Assembly: GCA_945903685.1 (NCBI GenBank)
Contig: CAMDOQ010000006.1
Span: 1-34,102 of the forward strand
Direction of reading: 5' to 3'
Source: Rhizobium sp. Q54
GTDB lineage: Bacteria; Pseudomonadota; Alphaproteobacteria; SHVV01
Length of the DNA stretch: 34,102 nt
The notes under the pieces are model-generated. The model made no database searches. It was not told the DNA's origin and worked only from the letters and a program-made list of their open reading frames with translations. Below, piece after piece: positions 12,709 to 29,597 of this stretch (positions within the stretch are counted from its first letter, which is position 1; each line of letters starts with the position of its first letter). A program made the translations under genes and the position numbers.

Positions 12709-14043
12709 ATGGCCACCTTCGACCTATTGATCCGCGACGGTACGCTGCTGACCACAAGCGGCGAGGAGCGGGCAGATATTGCGGTGCTCGATGGCCGCAT
12801 CGCCTTGATCGGCAGTCTCGGCCGCGCCACAGCCGCGACCACGATCGAGGCGAGGGGGCTTTACGTTCTGCCGGGGGTCATCGATACCCAGGTTCACTTC
12901 CGCGAGCCCGGCCTCACGCATAAGGAAGACTTCGAATCGGGAACCCGCGCGGCGGTCAAGGGCGGCGTCACCGCGGTCTTCGATATGCCCAACACCAAGC
13001 CGGCGATCGTCGACGAGGCCACGTTCGAGGACAAGTTCCGGGCGATACGAACGCGGTCGTGGTGCGACTTCGGGCTCTACGTCGGCGCCTCGCCCGCCAA
13101 TGTCGAGCGGCTCGAAGCGCTCGAACTGATGCCGGCCTGCGCCGGGGTCAAGGTCTTCATGGGCTCCTCGACCGGCGATCTCCTGATCCCCGACGACGAA
13201 ACCCTGAAGAAAGTACTGTTTGCCGGTCGCCGTCGGGTTGCCGTCCACTGCGAGGACGAACCGCGGCTGAAAGACCGCCGGCCGATTGCCGAGAAAGCCG
13301 GGCAACCCTCGGCGCATCCCGAGTGGCGCGACGAGCAGACTGCGTTCGAAGCGACCAGCCGGCTATTGGCGCTGGCGCGCCTCGCCGGGCGACGAGTGCA
13401 CGTCCTTCACGTTACCACCGGCCAGGAAATGGATCTGCTCGCCGGGCATCGCGACATCGCGACCATCGAAGTGACGCCGCAGCATCTGACGCTGGTCGCG
13501 CCAGAGTGTTACGAACGGCTGGGGACACGGGCACAGATGAACCCGCCGATTCGCGGCCTGATCCATCAGGAACGCTTGTGGCGCGCCGTCGCCGATGGCT
13601 TGGTCGACATGATCGGCTCGGATCACGCGCCGCATCTGCCCGACGAGAAAGCACGGCGGTATCCCGACAGTCCGTCGGGCATGCCAGGCGTGCAAACCCT
13701 GGTGCCGATCATGTTGGATCACGTCAACGCCGGCCGGCTCACCTTGCGGCGCTTCGTCGACTTGACGTCGGCCGGGCCGGCACGCGCCTTCGGTATCGCG
13801 CGCAAGGGGGCGGTCGCGGTCGGCTACGACGGCGACTTCACCATCGTCGATATGGCTGCCAAGCGCACCATTGCCGCCAGCTGGCTGGTCAGTAAGTGCG
13901 GCTGGTCCCCGTTCGAGGGCTGCGCCGTTACCGGCTGGCCGATCGCCACCATTATCCGCGGCCGCGTCGTCATGCTGCAGGGCGAGGTGATCGGCGAGCC
14001 CGCGGGATCGCGCCTGCGTTTCGTCGAAGCGCTCAGTCTTTAA
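12709..14043 (+). CDS. Dihydroorotase (class I, amidohydrolase superfamily)
   Basis: ATG 12709; PGVIDTQVHFREPGLTHKEDFESGTRAAVKGGVTAVFDMPNTKP...MIGSDHAPH. Confidence 0.88.
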   Translation: MATFDLLIRDGTLLTTSGEERADIAVLDGRIALIGSLGRATAATTIEARGLYVLPGVIDTQVHFREPGLTHKEDFESGTRAAVKGGVTAVFDMPNTKPAIVDEATFEDKFRAIRTRSWCDFGLYVGASPANVERLEALELMPACAGVKVFMGSSTGDLLIPDDETLKKVLFAGRRRVAVHCEDEPRLKDRRPIAEKAGQPSAHPEWRDEQTAFEATSRLLALARLAGRRVHVLHVTTGQEMDLLAGHRDIATIEVTPQHLTLVAPECYERLGTRAQMNPPIRGLIHQERLWRAVADGLVDMIGSDHAPHLPDEKARRYPDSPSGMPGVQTLVPIMLDHVNAGRLTLRRFVDLTSAGPARAFGIARKGAVAVGYDGDFTIVDMAAKRTIAASWLVSKCGWSPFEGCAVTGWPIATIIRGRVVMLQGEVIGEPAGSRLRFVEALSL

Positions 14044-14722
14044 CGCCGCCGTTGCGGCGCGCTTCGTCGCCCGGTAGGGGGGCCCGCACGGTCGCGTTCT
14101 CGATAAACAGCGTCGCGGTCTCGACCAGATCGGCGAAGCTCGCCGCCTTCATCTTGCTCATGACGTTGGCGCGGTGGGTTTCGACCGTTTTCGGGCTGAT
14201 GTTGAGCTTGTTGGCGATTTTCTTGTTCGAGTCGCCGCCGAGCAGCAGCGCCATCACCTCTTTTTCGCGCGCCGTCAATTGATCGTAGCGGGCGAGGTAG
14301 ACGCATCGCCGCGCCGCGCTCTTGCGCGCGTGGGCGTCCATCTCGATGCAGCGTTGCACGAGGTCGAGCAGTGCCTGGTTGCTGAACGGTTTTTGCAGCA
14401 GGTCGACAGCTCCGTTCTTCATCGCCTTGACGGCGGTCGGGACATCGACGTGCCCGGAAACGATGATGACCGGGTGGGCGTTGCCGAGGTCCTTGAGCCG
14501 GCGATGGACCTCGAGGCCGCTCATGCCGGGAAGCCGGATATCGAGGACAATGCAGCCGGGGCGACTGCCGTCGAGTTTGTCGAGGAATTCGGTGCCCGAG
14601 CCGTAGGCTTCGGGGCTAAGCCCGACCGCTTCGACGACGGCGCACATGGTTTCGCGCAATTCGGGATCGTCCTCAACGATAAAAACGGTCGCGGAGGCTT
14701 GAAGCGTCGTTACCGGTTGCAT
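14033..14722 (-). CDS. FixJ-family response regulator RR1 (REC + LuxR HTH)
   Basis: VFIVEDDPELRETMCAVVEAVGL...GCIVLDIRLPGMSGLEVHRRL...LTAREKEVMALLLGGDSNKKIANKLNISPKTVETHRANVMSKM. Confidence 0.93.
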   Translation of the reverse strand: MQPVTTLQASATVFIVEDDPELRETMCAVVEAVGLSPEAYGSGTEFLDKLDGSRPGCIVLDIRLPGMSGLEVHRRLKDLGNAHPVIIVSGHVDVPTAVKAMKNGAVDLLQKPFSNQALLDLVQRCIEMDAHARKSAARRCVYLARYDQLTAREKEVMALLLGGDSNKKIANKLNISPKTVETHRANVMSKMKAASFADLVETATLFIENATVRAPLPGDEARRNGGVKD

Positions 14723-14741: not shown

Positions 14742-17700
14742 CTAGTCGGGTTCGTGGGCCCGGCTGGATCCGATTAGTTCTCGAATACGCAGGGCGACTT
14801 CATCGCGGTTGTAGGGCTTGTGCAGGAACGGAAGCGGCGGCGAGGCGGCGGCGGCAACGGTCGATTGCGACTCGTCACCCGACGCTACCACGATCTTGAG
14901 GCCGGGCGCGATTCCGAGCGCCGCTTTCGTCAACTGCCAACCGTTCATATCACCGGCTATCCCGAGGTCGGTGAGCATCACGTCGACCGGCGTTCGCCGC
15001 TTGATGATGCCGAGCGCGGTTTGCGCGTCGGCGACGGCAATCGTACGAAAGCCAAGCGTTTCGATCATGGCCCCAACCGTCTCACGCACGTCGGGATCGT
15101 CCTCGACCACCAGAACGGCACACTTGGCTTTTGGAGGGCTTTTTCCGGCGATCGGTTTCGCCGAAGCGAGGGGCGCCAGCGGTGGCGTGCTGGCGTACTC
15201 GCGTCCGATCGAGCGCGGCAAGTAGAGCGACACCGTCGTTCCACGTTTCTCCTCGCTGGCGACGCGGGCGAAACCGCCCGCCTGGTTGACAAACCCGTAG
15301 ACCAGCGCGAGGCCCAAACCGGTGCCGACGCCGACTTCCTTGGTGGTGAAGAACGGCTCGAAGGCGTGGCTCAACGTTTCGGCCGGCATGCCGATGCCGG
15401 TGTCGCTGACCGCGACCACCACATAGTCGCCGGGGGGGATACCGTCGCTCGCGTCGACGAGGGTCGTGTTGCGGACGACCACGGCGAGGGTTCCGCCGTC
15501 GGGCATGGCGTCGCGGGCATTGACGATGAGATTGACGAGCGACGACTCGGCCTGTACCGGGTCGACCAGCGTCGTCCACGATTTCTCGGCGTCGATCGCG
15601 ATCGTTATGCCGTGGGGCAGGGTCTGTTGCAGCATTTCGACCGTGCCGCGCGCGAGCGCGCCGAGATCGGTCGGCCGGTGCTGCTCGGGCTGCTTGCGGG
15701 CGAAGGCGAGCAGGCGCCGCGTGAGATCGGCGCCGCGGTTGGCGCCGCGCAGCGCGATCTCGACCCGCTTCTGGGCGAACGCGTCCTCGCGGAAGCGATC
15801 GCGCAACAGTTCGAGGTTGCCGGTGATCACCATCAACAGGTTGTTGAATTCGTGCGCGATGCCGCCGGTCAGCGTGCCGATGGCCTCGAGCTTTTGCGAT
15901 TGGCGCAAGGCTTCTTCGGCCTCCTTGCGTGCGGTGATGTCGATGGCCGCGACCTGCACGGCATTGGTCCCCTCCCAAGCGATCATGTTGCTCACCGCGA
16001 CGATCCACACCCGCGACCCGTCTTTCTTCAAGCCGCGATACTCGAAGCGGGCGGTGGCGATGTCGCCACCCAAGCGGGCGTCGCGCAAGGCTTGGAGCTT
16101 CAGCCGATCTTCGGGGGCGACCAACGAGTCGAGCGACGCCAGCACCCGAATCTCGTCGACGGCGTACCCGAAGATATCGGCAAACGCGCGGTTGGCGAAC
16201 AGGACGCCGGTATCGCTGAAAACGATCGTGCCCTGAACCGAGCTCTCGACCACGCCGCGAAACTTTTCTTCGCTCGCGCGCAGCGCCGCTTCCGCGCGTT
16301 TTCGGTCCGTAATTTCGAACAGGGTGCATAGGAACGCCGGCTGGTCCTGCCAGCGCACCGCCTGCACAGCGACGTCGATCCAGCAGCGCGAACCGTCGCG
16401 GCGGACGCCGCGAAATTCGTAGCGTGACGGCGCGCTGTCGCCGCGTTGGCGCGCCGCCGCGTACCCGCGCAACCGCGGTATTTCGCTTGGATCGAGCAGC
16501 GACCCGATCGACTCGAGCGCGAGATACTCGGCCGCCGAATCGAGCCCGTGAATCTTGGCGACCGCGTCGTTGGCGAACAACGGCTTCCACTTGGTGTCGA
16601 GGACGACGATCCCTTCGATCGATCCTTCGACCAGGTAGCGGAAGCGCGTTTCGTTCTCGCGCCGTTCCTTTTCGGCTTGCTTGAGCGCGCTGACATCGGT
16701 GGTCACGCCGAGCAGCATCGGTTGACCATCGATGTCGATCGCGACGGCCGAGTGCAAGGCGTGAATAGTTGCTCCGTTGCGGGCGCGCAACGTCACTTCG
16801 GCGTTGCGGATTTCGCCATCGTGGTCGAGCGTCGGTGCAACGCGGCTGCGTTCGTCGCGATCGACCCAGATACCGAGGTCGGTCGCGGTACGTCCGACCG
16901 CCTCGTCGCGCGACCACCCGAAGGTCTCGCACCACTTGTCGTTGACCGCGAACAGCACGCGGGTCGATGCGAACGTGATCGCGGTTGCAATCGGGCTCGC
17001 TTCGAACGCGCGGAAGAAGCGTTCGTTGGCGCGCCGGAGCTCGTTTTCGCTGTCGCGAAGCGGCGTTACATCGACGATCGCCGCAACCACCATCGCTTCG
17101 CCGTTGATTTCGGTTCGTTCGAAACCGCAGAGGGCGCGTACGATCCGACCGTCCGGCGCTCTGAAGTCGGCGGCTAGATCGCGTACGTAGTCCTTTCGGC
17201 GCAGACGGTCGTACGTGCGCTGACGCTCGGCTGGCTCGACCCAAAAGTCGAACTCGGCGGCACTTCGGCCGACCACCTGCTCGCGCCCGACGCCGAACAG
17301 TCTTACCCACTTGTCGTTGACCGCATGAACGATGTCGCCATCGAGCTTGACGATCGACATCGCGACCGGCGCGGCATGGAACGACTTGAAGAACCGCTCG
17401 TTGGCGAGCTCGGCCTCGCGTTCGGCGAGCTTGCGCGCGGTCACATCGCGGAAATGAACGACAAAACCGCTGACCGCCGCATCTTCGCTCTCGCGCCAGG
17501 TTGTCTCGAGGCTACGCCACGCGCCGTCATGACGCTGGAGACGCAATTCGATCGTACTCTCGCGACTGGCGGCATCCGAAACGACCCGTCGGGCACGATC
17601 GACATCGTCGGGGTGAACGATGTCGAATAGACGCCGACCCACGATCTCCGGCGGCTGCATGCCGAGCGTGGCCTTCACCGACGGACCCGCATAGCGTACG

Positions 17701-18428
17701 GTCGCATCGGGCGCGACGTTCATGACAATATCGCTCGCACTTTCGGTGAGCGCGCGAAAATAGGCTTCGCGAACGAAGAGCGCGTCGGATTTTTCTTTCA
17801 ATTCTTCGATCAAACTTTCGTTCTTGATGGCCATCTCGATGCCGCCAAGTAGCGCCGTATGAAGCCGCGCACCGCCCCGCTGGACAAATCCCAACCAAAC
17901 GATCGCGAGGATGGCGGCGGCGACCTCGAAACGCGTACCGAGAAGGAGATCGAATGTGCCGGGGCCGAGCGTTAACGCGGCGGAGAGCATCGCCAAGCGT
18001 GGACGGGCCGTTATGGTGATCGGTAGGCCCGTCGCTATCGCCAATACGAGTATAGAGAGAATTAGGTCGCCGGAATCGGGTAGGTCGGGAAGCGAAATGA
18101 GTCCGTGGAGGGAAACCAAGCCCCACAAGAGACCGGAGATCGGAAACGAGCTCACGACGATTTGCACCGCCCTCCGCGGCACCTCGTCTGTCGGGCGAAA
18201 ACGCAAATAGTACGCTGTGATTGCCAGCCGTAGGCAGCTTAGGCCGACCATGGCAGCGACCCATGATGCCGAGAACCCAACCAGATGGTTGTAAAACAAT
18301 TCGACGGCGACGATCGGCGTGACCAGAAGCGAAAAAATCGCCGAAGTCTTAGCCTGGGAAAAAAAGGCTGCGTTCAGGCGGCGCTCGCGCTCGGCCGTCG
18401 GATCGGGGCGGGTCGATGGACCGTGCAT
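14742..18428 (-). CDS. Multi-PAS hybrid sensor histidine kinase HK1 (N-terminal membrane domain, about 5 PAS, HisKA, HATPase_c, C-terminal REC)
   Basis: 1228 aa; five PAS-like repeats (starting FRALTESASDIV, FFKSFHAAPVAMSIV, FFRAFEASPIATAIT, FRYLVEGSIEGIV, FRGVVESSVQGTIV); H-box LTGGIAHEFNNLL; G-box GVGTGLGLALVYGF; REC VLVVEDDPDVRETV...VDVMLTDLGIAGDMNG. Confidence 0.95.
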   Translation of the reverse strand: MHGPSTRPDPTAERERRLNAAFFSQAKTSAIFSLLVTPIVAVELFYNHLVGFSASWVAAMVGLSCLRLAITAYYLRFRPTDEVPRRAVQIVVSSFPISGLLWGLVSLHGLISLPDLPDSGDLILSILVLAIATGLPITITARPRLAMLSAALTLGPGTFDLLLGTRFEVAAAILAIVWLGFVQRGGARLHTALLGGIEMAIKNESLIEELKEKSDALFVREAYFRALTESASDIVMNVAPDATVRYAGPSVKATLGMQPPEIVGRRLFDIVHPDDVDRARRVVSDAASRESTIELRLQRHDGAWRSLETTWRESEDAAVSGFVVHFRDVTARKLAEREAELANERFFKSFHAAPVAMSIVKLDGDIVHAVNDKWVRLFGVGREQVVGRSAAEFDFWVEPAERQRTYDRLRRKDYVRDLAADFRAPDGRIVRALCGFERTEINGEAMVVAAIVDVTPLRDSENELRRANERFFRAFEASPIATAITFASTRVLFAVNDKWCETFGWSRDEAVGRTATDLGIWVDRDERSRVAPTLDHDGEIRNAEVTLRARNGATIHALHSAVAIDIDGQPMLLGVTTDVSALKQAEKERRENETRFRYLVEGSIEGIVVLDTKWKPLFANDAVAKIHGLDSAAEYLALESIGSLLDPSEIPRLRGYAAARQRGDSAPSRYEFRGVRRDGSRCWIDVAVQAVRWQDQPAFLCTLFEITDRKRAEAALRASEEKFRGVVESSVQGTIVFSDTGVLFANRAFADIFGYAVDEIRVLASLDSLVAPEDRLKLQALRDARLGGDIATARFEYRGLKKDGSRVWIVAVSNMIAWEGTNAVQVAAIDITARKEAEEALRQSQKLEAIGTLTGGIAHEFNNLLMVITGNLELLRDRFREDAFAQKRVEIALRGANRGADLTRRLLAFARKQPEQHRPTDLGALARGTVEMLQQTLPHGITIAIDAEKSWTTLVDPVQAESSLVNLIVNARDAMPDGGTLAVVVRNTTLVDASDGIPPGDYVVVAVSDTGIGMPAETLSHAFEPFFTTKEVGVGTGLGLALVYGFVNQAGGFARVASEEKRGTTVSLYLPRSIGREYASTPPLAPLASAKPIAGKSPPKAKCAVLVVEDDPDVRETVGAMIETLGFRTIAVADAQTALGIIKRRTPVDVMLTDLGIAGDMNGWQLTKAALGIAPGLKIVVASGDESQSTVAAAASPPLPFLHKPYNRDEVALRIRELIGSSRAHEPD

Positions 18429-18602: not shown

Positions 18603-18668
18603 TTTTTCGCTTGCGACGCGTTTGCTGTATCTTGCTTTGTGCCGCCGCTACCAACAGAAAGGCAATCC

Positions 18669-19835
18669 ATGACTGCGTGCATCATCGGCTGGGGTCACAC
18701 CCGCTTCGGCAAGCTCGATGGCGTCGACCTGGAGGCGCTGGTCAAGACCGCGGCCGGCGAGGCTATTACCGACGCCGGGATCGCGCCGACCGACGTCGAC
18801 GCGATCTATCTCGGCTTCTACAACGGCGGCATGGATCCGCAGGAATTCGCCGCCTCGCTCGTCCTTCAGCTCGACCCCACGCTTCGCTTTACACCGGCGA
18901 CCCGGGTCGAGAACGCGTGCGCGACCGGTTCGGCCGCGATCTACCAGGGGATCGACGCGATCGATGCGAAACGGGCTCGGATCGTGCTGGCTGTCGGGGT
19001 CGAAAAGATGACGGCGACGGCGACCGCCGACGTCACCGCCTCGCTCGCTAAGTGTTCCTACGTTAAAGAGGAAGCGAGCCAGGGCATCACCTTCCCCGGC
19101 ATGTTCGCGCAGATGATGCAGCGTTACTATCAGCGGTACGGCGACAAATCGGATGCGATCGCGCGGATCGCGGCCAAGAACCATCGCAACGGCGCCAAGA
19201 ATCCGCTCGCCCACATGCAGAAGGATTTGGGCTTCGAGTTCTGCCGCCACGAGTCGGAGAAGAATCCCGTGGTCGTGCCGCCGCTCAAGCGGACCGATTG
19301 TTCGATGATTTCCGATGGCGCGGCGGCGGTGGTCCTGGCCGATGTCGAAACCGCGCTCGCGATGAAGAAAGCGATCGTGTTCCGGGCCCACGAGCACGTC
19401 CAGGACCTGCTGCCGATGCGCTCGCGCGATATCTTGAAAATGGAAGGCGGTCGCCGGGCCTGGCGCCGCGCGCTCGACGCGGCCGGTGTTTCGATCGCGG
19501 ACCTGTCGCTGGTCGAAACCCACGACTGTTTCACCATCGCGGAGCTGCTCGAGTACGAAGCGATGGGCTTGACGCCCGAGGGCGAGGGCGCGCGCGCGAT
19601 CGACGAGGGCTGGACCGAGCCCGGCGGGCGCCTACCCGTCAATCTGTCGGGCGGCCTCAAATCCAAAGGCCACCCGATCGGGGCGACCGGCGTTTCGATG
19701 CACGTGATGGCGGCGTCGCAACTCGCCGGAACCGCGGTCGGGGTTCAGCACCCGAACCCCAAGCTCGCCGGCGTCTTCAACATGGGTGGATCAGCGGTCG
19801 CGAACTACGTCTCGATTCTCGAACGGCTGCGCTGA
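18669..19835 (+). CDS. Thiolase-family protein (acetyl-CoA acetyltransferase / SCP-x thiolase-like)
   Basis: ATG 18669; Cys motif VENACATGSAAIYQGI and C-terminal KSKGHPIGATGVSMHVMAASQL...GVFNMGGSAVANYVSIL. Confidence 0.9.
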   Translation: MTACIIGWGHTRFGKLDGVDLEALVKTAAGEAITDAGIAPTDVDAIYLGFYNGGMDPQEFAASLVLQLDPTLRFTPATRVENACATGSAAIYQGIDAIDAKRARIVLAVGVEKMTATATADVTASLAKCSYVKEEASQGITFPGMFAQMMQRYYQRYGDKSDAIARIAAKNHRNGAKNPLAHMQKDLGFEFCRHESEKNPVVVPPLKRTDCSMISDGAAAVVLADVETALAMKKAIVFRAHEHVQDLLPMRSRDILKMEGGRRAWRRALDAAGVSIADLSLVETHDCFTIAELLEYEAMGLTPEGEGARAIDEGWTEPGGRLPVNLSGGLKSKGHPIGATGVSMHVMAASQLAGTAVGVQHPNPKLAGVFNMGGSAVANYVSILERLR

Positions 19836-20496
19836 CCGCCGGCGAGGGGCTTTTCGGCCGAGGCTGGCGGCGACCCTCGATCATGGTCGCGGAGGTGAAT
19901 CGCCGCCGCACGAGTTCGGCGAAGCTCTTGGCGCTGAGCTTGCGCATAACGCGGAGACGATGGATTTCCACCGTCTTGCGCGTGATGCCGAGTCGCTCGC
20001 CGATCGTGTGGTTGGTGAGGCCGTTCAGCAGCAGCGCGAACACGTTGCGTTCACGGGGAGTTAACTTGCGTACGCGCTCGACGTAGTCGGTCCGTTCCGC
20101 GATCCCGCGACGGGCCTTACGATCGGCGTCGAGCGCCCGCTGCACCGCATCGAGCAGCTCCTGACGCGGAAACGGCTTCGAAATGAGCTCGACCGCCCCC
20201 GCCTTGAACCCAGCCACCGTCATCGCGACGTCGGCGTGGCCGGTCACGAAGATAACCGGCTGGGCGGCACCGCGCTCCTTGAGCCGGCGCAGCAGTTCGA
20301 TCCCGGTCATGTCGGTGAGCCGCATCTCGGAGACGATGCAGCCTGCGCGCCCCGGATCGACGGCGGCGAGGAGTTCGGCGCCGTTCGCGGACGCGGCCGC
20401 CAGCAACCCGACGGTTTCGAGCAACGCCGAAATTTCCTTGCGCACCACGGGATCGCCGTCGACCACATGGGTGAGCGGCTCGTCGTCGACGTTCAT
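19777..20496 (-). CDS. FixJ-family response regulator RR2 with atypical receiver (Glu at phospho-acceptor position)
   Basis: ATG 20496; HVVDGDPVVRKEISALLETVGL...GCIVSEMRLTDMTGIELLRRL...FVTGHADVAMTVAGFKAGAVELISKPF...LTPRERNVFALLLNGLTNHTIGERLGITRKTVEIHR. Confidence 0.9.
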   Translation of the reverse strand: MNVDDEPLTHVVDGDPVVRKEISALLETVGLLAAASANGAELLAAVDPGRAGCIVSEMRLTDMTGIELLRRLKERGAAQPVIFVTGHADVAMTVAGFKAGAVELISKPFPRQELLDAVQRALDADRKARRGIAERTDYVERVRKLTPRERNVFALLLNGLTNHTIGERLGITRKTVEIHRLRVMRKLSAKSFAELVRRRFTSATMIEGRRQPRPKSPSPAVSAAVRESRRSSRPLIHPC

Positions 20497-20600: not shown

Positions 20601-20616
20601 CGTGACGTACGTCACA
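20601..20616. promoter_or_regulatory. Candidate CRP/FNR-superfamily-like operator
   Basis: CGTGA-CGTACG-TCACA; inner 14 bp GTGACGTACGTCAC (20602-20615) is a perfect palindrome; 9/10 match to TGTGA-N6-TCACA. Confidence 0.45.
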
Positions 20617-25641: not shown

Positions 25642-26289
25642 CTACGAAAGGCGTTCGCGATCCGCTTCCGAAAGATTCAAAGTCGCGGTTTCGATCAGGT
25701 CGGCAAGCGCGTGCGCCATCAGCTTAGTTTTAATACAGCGGCGCACCGCGCGCACCTCGTCGCGCGTTATCGCGTACTCCGCAGCGATCTTGCGGCTCGT
25801 CCATCCGTCTAGAAGCGACCGAAACACTTTTCTTTCGGTCGGAGCCAAGGATTCAACGCGTTTCAAGTAGAGTGCGCGGCCTTCGCCGTCCCGTCGCGCT
25901 CGGGTGCCGACTGATGCCGCCTTGCGGATCAGCTCAACCATATCGGTCGAGCGGAATGGCTTCTGAATGACATCGATCGCCCCCTGCTTGTACGCACACC
26001 CGGCGGCGGGCACATCGACGCTGCCGCTAACGATGATAACCGGATGGGTCACGCCCGATTCGCGAAGGCGCTTTAGGACTTCGAGGCCCGAAGCACCGGG
26101 GAGGGCGAGGTCGAGGACGATGCAGCCAGCCCGTTCAGGAGTGAAGCGGTCGAAGAACTCATCGACGTTGGCGGCGGCGACGGCCTCGCAACCAGCGAGA
26201 TCGGCAATGTCGATCAACAACTCGCGCATGTCCGGATCGTCGTCGAGGATGAACGCAATCGCTCGTTCGCGGGAAAAGCTGTCGGTCAT
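25642..26289 (-). CDS. FixJ-like response regulator RR3 with divergent LuxR-type HTH
   Basis: FILDDDPDMRELLIDIADLAG...GCIVLDLALPGASGLEVLKRL...VIQKPF; HTH region LAPTERKVFRSLLDGWTSRKIAAEYAITRDEVRAVRRCIKTKL. Confidence 0.85.
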   Translation of the reverse strand: MTDSFSRERAIAFILDDDPDMRELLIDIADLAGCEAVAAANVDEFFDRFTPERAGCIVLDLALPGASGLEVLKRLRESGVTHPVIIVSGSVDVPAAGCAYKQGAIDVIQKPFRSTDMVELIRKAASVGTRARRDGEGRALYLKRVESLAPTERKVFRSLLDGWTSRKIAAEYAITRDEVRAVRRCIKTKLMAHALADLIETATLNLSEADRERLS

Positions 26290-26366
26290 TGGCTACTCGT
26301 TGTCCTCAAAGTTCGGAGGTAGGGCGGCAAGGGGTCGCCGCCGTCTGCCCGCGATACTGGTCACGG

Positions 26367-26745
26367 ACAAACTAGGTCGACATACCGCTCCTGACTAGCT
26401 GCGGAAAATGCTGAGCGACGTGGGCAAACACCACGGTCGGCAGGACACGACTCCTTGTCGTAGGTACCCGGGGTTTTCCCTGAGAAACGTCGGTGGAGGT
26501 CTCCGTTACCTAAGCCAATGAAAACGACTACAACGCAGCCGACGTTAGGCCGCTTATGTTCCCTCGATATGCCTCGCGCGCCGGTGTCGCGCTTTGTCCG
26601 TTTGTTCGGCCCGCTCGTTGGGTTTGCTCGAGGCATTCTTGGACCAACGGCGGATAGTAGGTGCTGCATTCGCGCCCAGGGCTGAAGGTCCGTTGTTCGC
26701 ACCGCCCTTCGTTGCGCACTTCAATTGGTGAACAAACTAGTCGAC
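26367..26745. repeat. Two near-identical 14-15 bp elements in the RR3/HK2 divergent intergenic region
   Basis: ACAAACTAGGTCGAC (26367-26381) and ACAAACTAGTCGAC (26732-26745), one base indel. Confidence 0.35.
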
Positions 26746-26816
26746 CACTCGAAGCGCGAGGTGAGACGAAGGTTCCGAATCTAAATCTTGTACGAAAAAC
26801 GCGAGGTTCCACGCGT

Positions 26817-28283
26817 ATGAATCGGTTGTATATCGTCGAAGACGAAGCGTTGATCGCGATCGAGATCGCCGATCGTCTCTCGGCATTGGGATACGAGATC
26901 GTTGGAACCGCATCGCGCGCCGACAGAGCGCTCGTCGAGATCGAAACGCTGAAGCCGGATCTCGTCTTGATCGACATGCGGCTCGGCGAGGGGGTGACTG
27001 GTATCGGCATCGCCCAGCGGCTTCACGATCGCGGCGAGATTCCGGTCGTTTTCCTTACGGCTTACTCCGACCCGAACCTCCTCAGGCAGGCGGCGGAAAC
27101 CGAACCGTTCGGCTACCTGGTCAAGCCATTCGAAGAACGCGAGTTGCATGCGACCGTCGAAACGGCTTTGCAGCGTCACCGTGCCGAGCGTGCGCTGCGC
27201 GAGACCAATGCCAAGCTTCGAGCGGCGCAAGCGGCGCTCGAAATTTCGAAGGAGTTATTCGAGTCCTTGGCCGCGTCCTCGCCGACGGCGGTCTTTCGAA
27301 CCGACGCCGCAGGGCGATGCACGTACGTCAATCGGCGGTGGGAGGAGATTACCGGCATTGACAGCGCCGACGCGCACAACGCGCCCTGGACGAATGCATT
27401 GCATCCGCTCGACCACGCGAGCGTTGCCGCTGAGTGGAATGCGGCCGGCCGGCGTGCGGCGCAGTTTCAAGCGGAATTGCGCGTCGGGGGCAGCGCCGAT
27501 AGCTGGGTAATCGCGCAGACGGCCCCCTTGCGGGGCCCAGATGGCGCGATGATCGGTCACGTCGGAACGCTGACCGACATCGCCGATCGGAAAAAAACCG
27601 AGTCGGCGTTGCAGCTCTTGTCGAACTTGAAAGGCGCCAGGAGCGAGTTCCCAAGCCACATTGTGGCAGGCCTTGCCGCGCTCTTCGATGCCGATTTCGC
27701 GTTCCTGGCCCAGCCAGTCGCCGGCGATCCCGAGAGCGCCCGTACTCTCGCCTACTGGGCCGACGGCAAGCTTCTGCCCGGCATCGCCTACAAGATTGCG
27801 GGAACGCCCTGCGAAACGGTGGTGGGTAAGGAGATCCGCGTTTACGAGGACGGCGTTCAGAAGTTGTTCTCGCGTGACGCCGCGTTGGTTCCGTTGGGGG
27901 TCAACGCTTATGCGGCAGCTCCGATTCGCGATTCGCTCGGCCGGTACTGCGGACACTTCGGCGTGATGCGGCGAGAACCGATCGTCAAACCGTCGGTCGT
28001 CCAGGGTGTGCTCGAGTTGTTGTCGGTGCCTATCGCCGCCGAACTCGATCGCGCCAACGCCGAGCAGAAATATTCCGGACTGTTCGAATTTGCGGCCGAC
28101 GGCATCCTCATGGTCGACGCGTCGGGAAAGCTACAGCTGGCTAATCGTAAAGCGGAATCGATCTTCGGATACGGCGTCGGCGAACTGACCGGATGCTCGG
28201 TGGAAAGTTTGGTTCCCCTGGCGCGCCGGCCGAATCATCCGTCGCTTCGCGAAGCGTTCACGAAGGTAGGCACTCCGCGCTAA
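26817..28283 (+). CDS. N-terminal part of split hybrid histidine kinase HK2 (REC-PAS-GAF-half PAS)
   Basis: ATG 26817; RLYIVEDEALIAIEIADRL...VLIDMRLGEGVTGIGIAQRL...; PAS; GAF-like; final PAS GILMVDASGKLQLANRKAESIFGYGVGELTGCSVESLVP stops at TAA 28281-28283. Confidence 0.85.
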   Translation: MNRLYIVEDEALIAIEIADRLSALGYEIVGTASRADRALVEIETLKPDLVLIDMRLGEGVTGIGIAQRLHDRGEIPVVFLTAYSDPNLLRQAAETEPFGYLVKPFEERELHATVETALQRHRAERALRETNAKLRAAQAALEISKELFESLAASSPTAVFRTDAAGRCTYVNRRWEEITGIDSADAHNAPWTNALHPLDHASVAAEWNAAGRRAAQFQAELRVGGSADSWVIAQTAPLRGPDGAMIGHVGTLTDIADRKKTESALQLLSNLKGARSEFPSHIVAGLAALFDADFAFLAQPVAGDPESARTLAYWADGKLLPGIAYKIAGTPCETVVGKEIRVYEDGVQKLFSRDAALVPLGVNAYAAAPIRDSLGRYCGHFGVMRREPIVKPSVVQGVLELLSVPIAAELDRANAEQKYSGLFEFAADGILMVDASGKLQLANRKAESIFGYGVGELTGCSVESLVPLARRPNHPSLREAFTKVGTPR

Positions 28284-29597
28284 ATGGGCGCGCGGCAAAG
28301 CTCTCTTACGGGGCTGCGTAAGGACGGCGCTGAAGTTCCCCTAAGCATCAGCCTCAGCCCAATCAAGACGAATGCCGGCGACTTTGTCGCGGCGATTGTC
28401 CGCGACATGACGGAACTCAATGCCCTCAACCACCAGCTTCGCCAAGCGCAAAAGATGGAGGCGATGGGTCAGCTAACTGGGGGAATCGCTCACGACTTCA
28501 ACAACTTGCTCGGAATTATCGTCGGGAACCTCGACTTAATGACGCTGCGCGCCGGCGTCTCGGGCGAGAGCGACGTCTTCGTCGATCGCGCGATCAAGGC
28601 AGCGCAGCGCGGTGTGGCCTTGACGCGGCGGCTCTTGGCGTTTGCGCGTCAGCAGCCGCTCAGTATCGAGCCGACGAATGTCGACACACGCATCCAGGAA
28701 ATGACGACACTGCTCAAAGGGACTTTGGGCGAAACCATCGAGATACGATTGAAACTGGACGCCGGAGATACACGCTGCGACATCGACGCGGGGCAACTTG
28801 ACTCAGTCATACTCAATCTCTGCTTGAACAGCCGCGCCGCCATGCCGAAGGGCGGGATGGTCGTCATCGAGACGTCGGTCGTCGACTTCGACGGTGGGGT
28901 TTTATCGGACAATGGCGAAATGCCGCCCGGGCGATACTGCATGATTGCGGTCACCGACAATGGCACGGGAATGCCCCGTGAGGTCCGCGAGCGCGCGTTC
29001 GAACCGTTCTTCACGACCAGGGAGACGGGAGACGGTACGGGGCTCGGCCTCAGCATAGTATACGGCTTCGCGCGTCAGACCGGCGGGATCGCGCGGATTT
29101 ACAGCGAGCTCGGCTACGGCACGACGGTGAAGATTTTCTTGCCGGTTTCCGCGTCAGTTTCGTCCGATGATCCCAAAGCCGTGAATGGCGGAGTGGTCGT
29201 TGGACACCGCGAGCGCATCCTCGTGGTCGAGGACAATGCCGATGGCCGCCAACTCCTCACCGATCTGCTGCCAACGATCGGCTACGAAGCAATCCTCGTC
29301 GGCGACGGTCCGTCGGCTTTGAAAGCGTTGGCGGACGACAAGGACATCGCGCTGGTACTCACCGATATCGTTTTGCCGGGGGGCATCAACGGATTTGAGG
29401 TCGCGCGAGCCGCGATCATGCGGGCACGGCCGGTACCCGCTTTGCTGATGTCGGGGTTTTCCAGCAATGCGATGCGGCCCGCCGATCTGCCCGCCGACTT
29501 GCCGATGTTGAGTAAGCCGTTCCGGGTCGCCGAGTTGGCTGAGGCGATTGCGGCGGAGCTGGGCAAGGCGGCGGCCCTGAGGGAAAAAATTCCGTAA
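28284..29597 (+). CDS. C-terminal part of split hybrid histidine kinase HK2 (half PAS-HisKA-HATPase_c-REC)
   Basis: Same frame as 26817-28283, starting right after [30 protein letters not shown]..., H-box [20 protein letters not shown]-box [32 protein letters not shown]...[16 protein letters not shown]. Confidence 0.85.

Follow-up and report, generated by a model that had tools for sequence, protein, structure and literature searches.

RR2, a FixJ/NarL-type gene in the window (the whole stretch of 34,102 nucleotides that was analysed), probably encodes a pseudo-response regulator, namely a duplicate of an RR1-like gene that keeps DNA binding, is not phosphorylated, and is set by its expression and/or by pairing with RR1. 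We infer from the sequence that Asp phosphorylation has been lost in RR2, that the protein would bind DNA and dimerise, and that expression or heterodimers would control it. The genome (G000) was compared with two congeners, G001 and G002. The features concerned are as follows.

19777..20496, minus strand: RR2, probable FixJ/NarL-type pseudo-response regulator of 239 aa (ORF and translation, Pfam, PDB sequence and fold matches, AlphaFold)
20455..20457, minus strand: Gly14 (GGC), which takes the place of the second acidic residue (DD2, the Mg2+ ligand) (alignment to VDDEEP of FixJ, alignment A1, homologue counts)
20326..20328, minus strand: Glu57 (GAG), which takes the place of the phospho-acceptor Asp54 of FixJ (sequence, ungapped alignment, alignment A1)
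19903..20070, minus strand: output domain of RR2, a LuxR/GerE helix-turn-helix, which is conserved (Pfam GerE; domain-wise identity and dN/dS)
19777..19907, minus strand: C-terminal tail of RR2 in a shifted frame, with 4 nt deleted relative to G002 (nucleotide alignment, frame comparison)
14033..14722, minus strand: RR1, a canonical FixJ-type regulator paralogous to RR2, in which the phosphorylation pocket is full (Pfam, residue table, tree)
14742..18428, minus strand: multi-PAS hybrid histidine kinase of 1228 aa, probable partner of RR1 (Pfam PAS, HisKA, HATPase_c and Response_reg)
18639..19835, plus strand: thiolase-fold gene, convergent with RR2 and syntenic in G001 and G002 (Pfam; 94% and 87% identity in the congeners)

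The protein encoded by the RR2 ORF (MNVDDEPLTHVVDGDP...) consists of a receiver (residues 8-122), a linker, a LuxR/GerE helix-turn-helix (HTH; residues 143-198), and the frameshifted tail. Both Pfam matches, Response_reg (PF00072; 1.7e-23) and GerE (PF00196; 7.7e-17), are above the cut-offs, and the latter bears out the original prediction that the LuxR HTH is kept. The AlphaFold model has a mean pLDDT of 89.1, with the receiver and the HTH mostly above 90, and the best PDB matches are StyR and FixJ by sequence, and StyR and full-length FixJ by predicted structure. RR2 has the FixJ/NarL-type architecture, with an N-terminal receiver and a C-terminal LuxR/GerE HTH, and its phosphorylation pocket (DD, D, T/S, K) is incomplete. 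Judged by its sequence, it is a protein of FixJ architecture and not a canonical phospho-regulated member of the family.

Glu57 of RR2 sits on Asp54 of FixJ in an ungapped alignment with S. meliloti FixJ, B. japonicum FixJ, and StyR. The Glu noticed earlier at the phospho-acceptor position is real, as is the Asp at this position in RR1 and in RR3 (25642-26289). The acidic pair, which had been taken as kept, is in fact broken: when VVDGDP of RR2 is aligned with VDDEEP of FixJ, the first acidic position (DD1) is Asp13 and the second (DD2) is Gly14. The DD2 residue is a direct Mg2+ ligand in receivers (PMC12632262), and D57 and D14 are nearly invariant in alignment A1, which comprises RR2 and 56 relatives. 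Thr85 and Lys107 are retained, in agreement with the original prediction; of the five catalytic residues defined in PMC12632262, RR2 lacks two. In addition, the D+4 residue is Thr in place of Pro, the K+2 residue is Phe, and the K-3 residue is Leu (Phe101 in FixJ); the K-3 aromatic is also absent from RR1 and RR3, and its loss is therefore not specific to RR2.

Among 134 aligned homologous receivers, which were collected by similarity to RR2 and are not a random sample, the acceptor is Asp in 132, Glu in one (RR2), and Ala in one (the RR2 orthologue in G002). DD2 is Asp in 130 of the 134, the exceptions being RR2 (Gly), the G002 orthologue (Ala), a relic in G001 (Gly), and one unrelated hybrid ORF. 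With Glu in RR2 and Ala in the orthologue, both proteins are aspartate-less receivers, i.e., receivers with no Asp at the acceptor position. The D of LTDMTG was considered as a displaced acceptor and ruled out; it aligns with the D of MPDMSG in FixJ, five residues past the acceptor (D+5). With Glu at the acceptor and Gly in place of the acidic Mg2+ ligand, the RR2 receiver would be without Asp phosphorylation.

G002 has its genes in the same order as G000: AMP ligase - RR2 - thiolase - kinase - RR1 - amidohydrolase. The RR2 of G002 has Ala at DD2 (IDAD), Ala at the acceptor (GCIVAAIDLPSMSG), and Val at the Thr position (LLVGHAE), which makes the absence of the pocket common to the pair. A single base change separates either codon, GAG (Glu) or GCC (Ala), from GAC (Asp), and two separate GAG from GCC. 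Phosphorylation independence, as originally proposed for RR2, appears well supported, since the acceptor Asp and the Mg2+ ligand are gone from the congener orthologue too. The Glu itself is not kept: the one intact syntenic orthologue found, that of G002, has Ala, and the G001 relic, a possible orthologue, has Asp. On the best reading, the conserved feature would be the loss of the phosphorylation chemistry rather than the Glu, and this argues against a dedicated phosphomimetic.

At the same locus, G001 has only a truncated receiver fragment (VDGD, with an intact GCIVLDLRLPDMGG) without an HTH, together with a leftover piece of the RR1 C-terminus, and the kinase has no match there. The two remnants (L127 11511-11807 for the receiver and 13330-13470 for RR1) lie on either side of the thiolase gene. 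Synteny and VDGD favour assigning the relic to RR2, whereas trees place it with RR1 (98/92) and its grouping with RR2 is not rejected (p-AU 0.165). Apart from the G002 orthologue, no match to RR2 above 48% identity was found in 80 contig loci and in 385 genomes sampled from the whole class, and the latter yielded no further RR2 orthologue.

In the tree, RR2 of G000 groups with RR2 of G002 (100/100), and a lineage-specific clade (95/95) unites this pair with RR1, RR3, and the G001 relic. The best reading of this nesting is that RR2 would be a lineage-specific duplicate of an RR1-type gene.

RR3 lies, with a receiver-PAS protein and a second hybrid kinase, in a cassette (25642-29597) which is present in G000 only; the genes flanking the cassette are about 50 bp apart in G002. 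The receiver pocket of RR3 is intact, its HTH match is weak (28 bits), and its branch, adjacent to RR1, is very long.

The two domains of RR2 differ markedly in conservation. Between G000 and G002, 53 of 115 positions differ in the receiver (54% identity) and 6 of 54 in the HTH (86-89% identity; p = 5e-6 for the difference between the domains). The corresponding values for RR1 are 10 of 114 (91% identity) and 0 of 54 (100% identity). The dN/dS is about 0.41 in the RR2 receiver, about 0.18 in the RR2 HTH, and 0.11 in the RR1 receiver, i.e., below 1 in all; the exact ratios should be read with the caveat that the RR2 pair may not be simple orthologues, because its dS is 0.82 as against 0.25-0.38 in the neighbours. 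The dN of the RR2 receiver is eight times that of RR1. These values indicate that the output domain of RR2 is under purifying selection and that the constraint on the receiver is much reduced, not absent. The net charge of the HTH is +8 and +7 in the RR2 pair, compared with about +3 in RR1.

The tail of RR2 is altered in G000 by a deletion of 4 nt directly after ...FAELV-R (about 19906), past the HTH core. The last 40 residues are consequently a shifted reading of the G002 tail (AAVHLRDDNRVPPPASAGKPLAGGQRSRSRIET versus AAIHLRDHDRGSPPASAEKPLAGGQRSRSRIET in the other frame). The tail overlaps the 3' end of the thiolase gene by 59 bp, and the deletion has lengthened this overlap. RR2 had been described as having no adjacent kinase gene, which holds only in part. 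The hybrid kinase is the nearest same-strand gene and starts 1.35 kb away, an arrangement found in G002 as well; on the other hand, the convergent thiolase gene lies between the two, and the kinase is probably paired with RR1. The reading frame of its orthologue in G002 (L118 11339-15006) is broken by TAG codons at 311 and 935 and shifts near codon 983. The RR1 gene beside the broken kinase is intact and 90% identical. From the frameshift in the RR2 tail and the lesions in the G002 kinase, the whole small system looks unstable in this genus.

Upstream of RR2, one further feature was found.

20602..20616, minus strand: CRP-like palindrome TGTGACGTACGTCAC (pattern search, alignment)

The CRP-like pattern has one match in the window, versus 0.05 expected, and TGTGACATTCATCAC is present at the corresponding position in G002. 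Of the three genomes, only G000 gave a match to the Pfam model used for a Crp-family HTH. As a lead towards control of RR2 by expression, the putative site is only suggestive. The intergenic region has a tRNA-like look, and ARAGORN finds no tRNA in it.

The proposed mechanism would begin with the duplication of an RR1-like gene within the lineage, giving rise to RR2. The receiver of the duplicate would keep its fold, be unable to carry out Asp phosphorylation, and serve as a fixed dimerisation platform driven by no kinase. The conserved and strongly basic HTH would then be on DNA whenever the protein is present. The activity of RR2 would depend on its expression level, which the CRP-like site of the promoter region may control, and/or on pairing with RR1; the idea of an RR2-RR1 heterodimer is only suggestive.

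The original prediction had also offered a natural phosphomimetic, in which Glu57 would bond with Thr85 and Lys107, imitate phospho-Asp, and lock the receiver in an active, dimerising form. All three residues are present in RR2, and the crystal structure of CmrT (DGD, E53, T80, K102) exhibits such bonding without Mg2+ or phosphate; D52E, moreover, increases the activity of CmrR (PMC12548384), and overexpressed DevR D54E is more active than the wild type (PMC4973870). However, D-to-E alone is often insufficient (PMC4395418), and CmrT E53A, a change made in the same DGD/E/T/K set as that of RR2, has little effect, surface motility being similar to that of the wild type (PMC12548384). RR2 also lacks the K-3 aromatic for Y/T coupling, and Phe at K+2 has been tied to inactive conformations in CheY (pseudo-receiver review). 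In the orthologue, moreover, the acceptor has been replaced by Ala and the Thr by Val; Glu is thus not what selection keeps, and phosphomimicry appears rather unlikely. A sequencing error or a strain-specific mutation in a normal regulator is very improbable indeed. The assembly is fragmented (227 contigs) and Glu is a single base from Asp (GAG from GAC or GAT), but the second catalytic residue (DD2) is lost too, and the syntenic orthologue, assembled separately from a congener, has neither acidic residue.

Some of the observations above may instead reflect a gene in decay, in which RR2 would be a redundant duplicate that has lost the constraint on its receiver and is heading for a pseudogene. 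The high dN of the receiver, the frameshifted tail, the two TAG codons and the frameshift in the G002 kinase, and the reduction of the G001 locus to fragments with no kinase match are all in line with it, and the fast evolution of the receiver and the frameshifted tail, which would also fit early decay, weigh against the reading of RR2 as a pseudo-response regulator. Against decay, the ORF is uninterrupted in G000 and G002 alike, the predicted fold is intact, the frameshift lies past the HTH core, and the dN/dS and identity values indicate constraint in the HTH and, to a lesser degree, in the receiver. Decay is therefore considered unlikely. A broader account, in which the two-component system is being dismantled stepwise in the genus, is more doubtful still. 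According to it, the kinase erodes, RR2 drops the phosphate switch while keeping DNA binding and becomes a kinase-free heterodimer partner of RR1, and RR3 keeps its pocket with a weak HTH.

The reading of RR2 as a pseudo-response regulator may be compared with known systems. Aspartate-less receivers constitute about 4% of receivers. Glu is the commonest replacement of their acceptor, accounting for 26% of them (PMC4395418). Only 29% of aspartate-less receivers have an acidic DD2 (PMC4395418), which is usually lost (PMC12632262), and the on/off switching of bacterial pseudo-receivers has been described as largely unknown (PMC12632262). By its residues, RR2 belongs to the known aspartate-less receivers and probably to the pseudo-receivers, whose activity does not depend on Asp phosphorylation, with a pattern nearly that of CmrT and AtvR. 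What is new is modest, namely that one locus provides both a Glu and an Ala version in nature, with a recent, canonical paralogue next to it. The Glu of RR2 and the Ala of its relative offer a natural comparison for whether the Glu matters at all; otherwise RR2 is an ordinary case of a class that forms several percent of receivers.

CmrT, an OmpR-type aspartate-less regulator of Clostridioides difficile, resembles RR2 in having DGD, a Glu acceptor, and the retained Thr and Lys, in having no Pro at D+4, and in being encoded alongside a normal kinase and a normal regulator (PMC12548384). It differs in its OmpR-type output and in keeping the K-3 aromatic (PMC12548384), whereas RR2 lies outside the kinase operon and has an orthologue with Ala instead of Glu. 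According to the account of AtvR of Pseudomonas aeruginosa given in PMC12548384, this regulator shares with RR2 a NarL/FixJ-type output, the absence of one DD residue, and the D-to-E change at the acceptor, and, unlike RR2, keeps Tyr at K-3 and Pro at D+4. WhiI of Streptomyces is likewise of the NarL/FixJ subfamily with a degenerate pocket that lacks one DD residue, but it is the Lys that is missing in WhiI and the Asp in RR2 (PMC4125116). WhiI acts as a heterodimer with BldM (PMC4125116), while a heterodimer of RR2 and RR1 is only putative. FixJ and StyR share the domain order, length, and fold of RR2; in contrast to RR2, their pocket (DD/D/T/K) is complete and phosphorylation regulates them.
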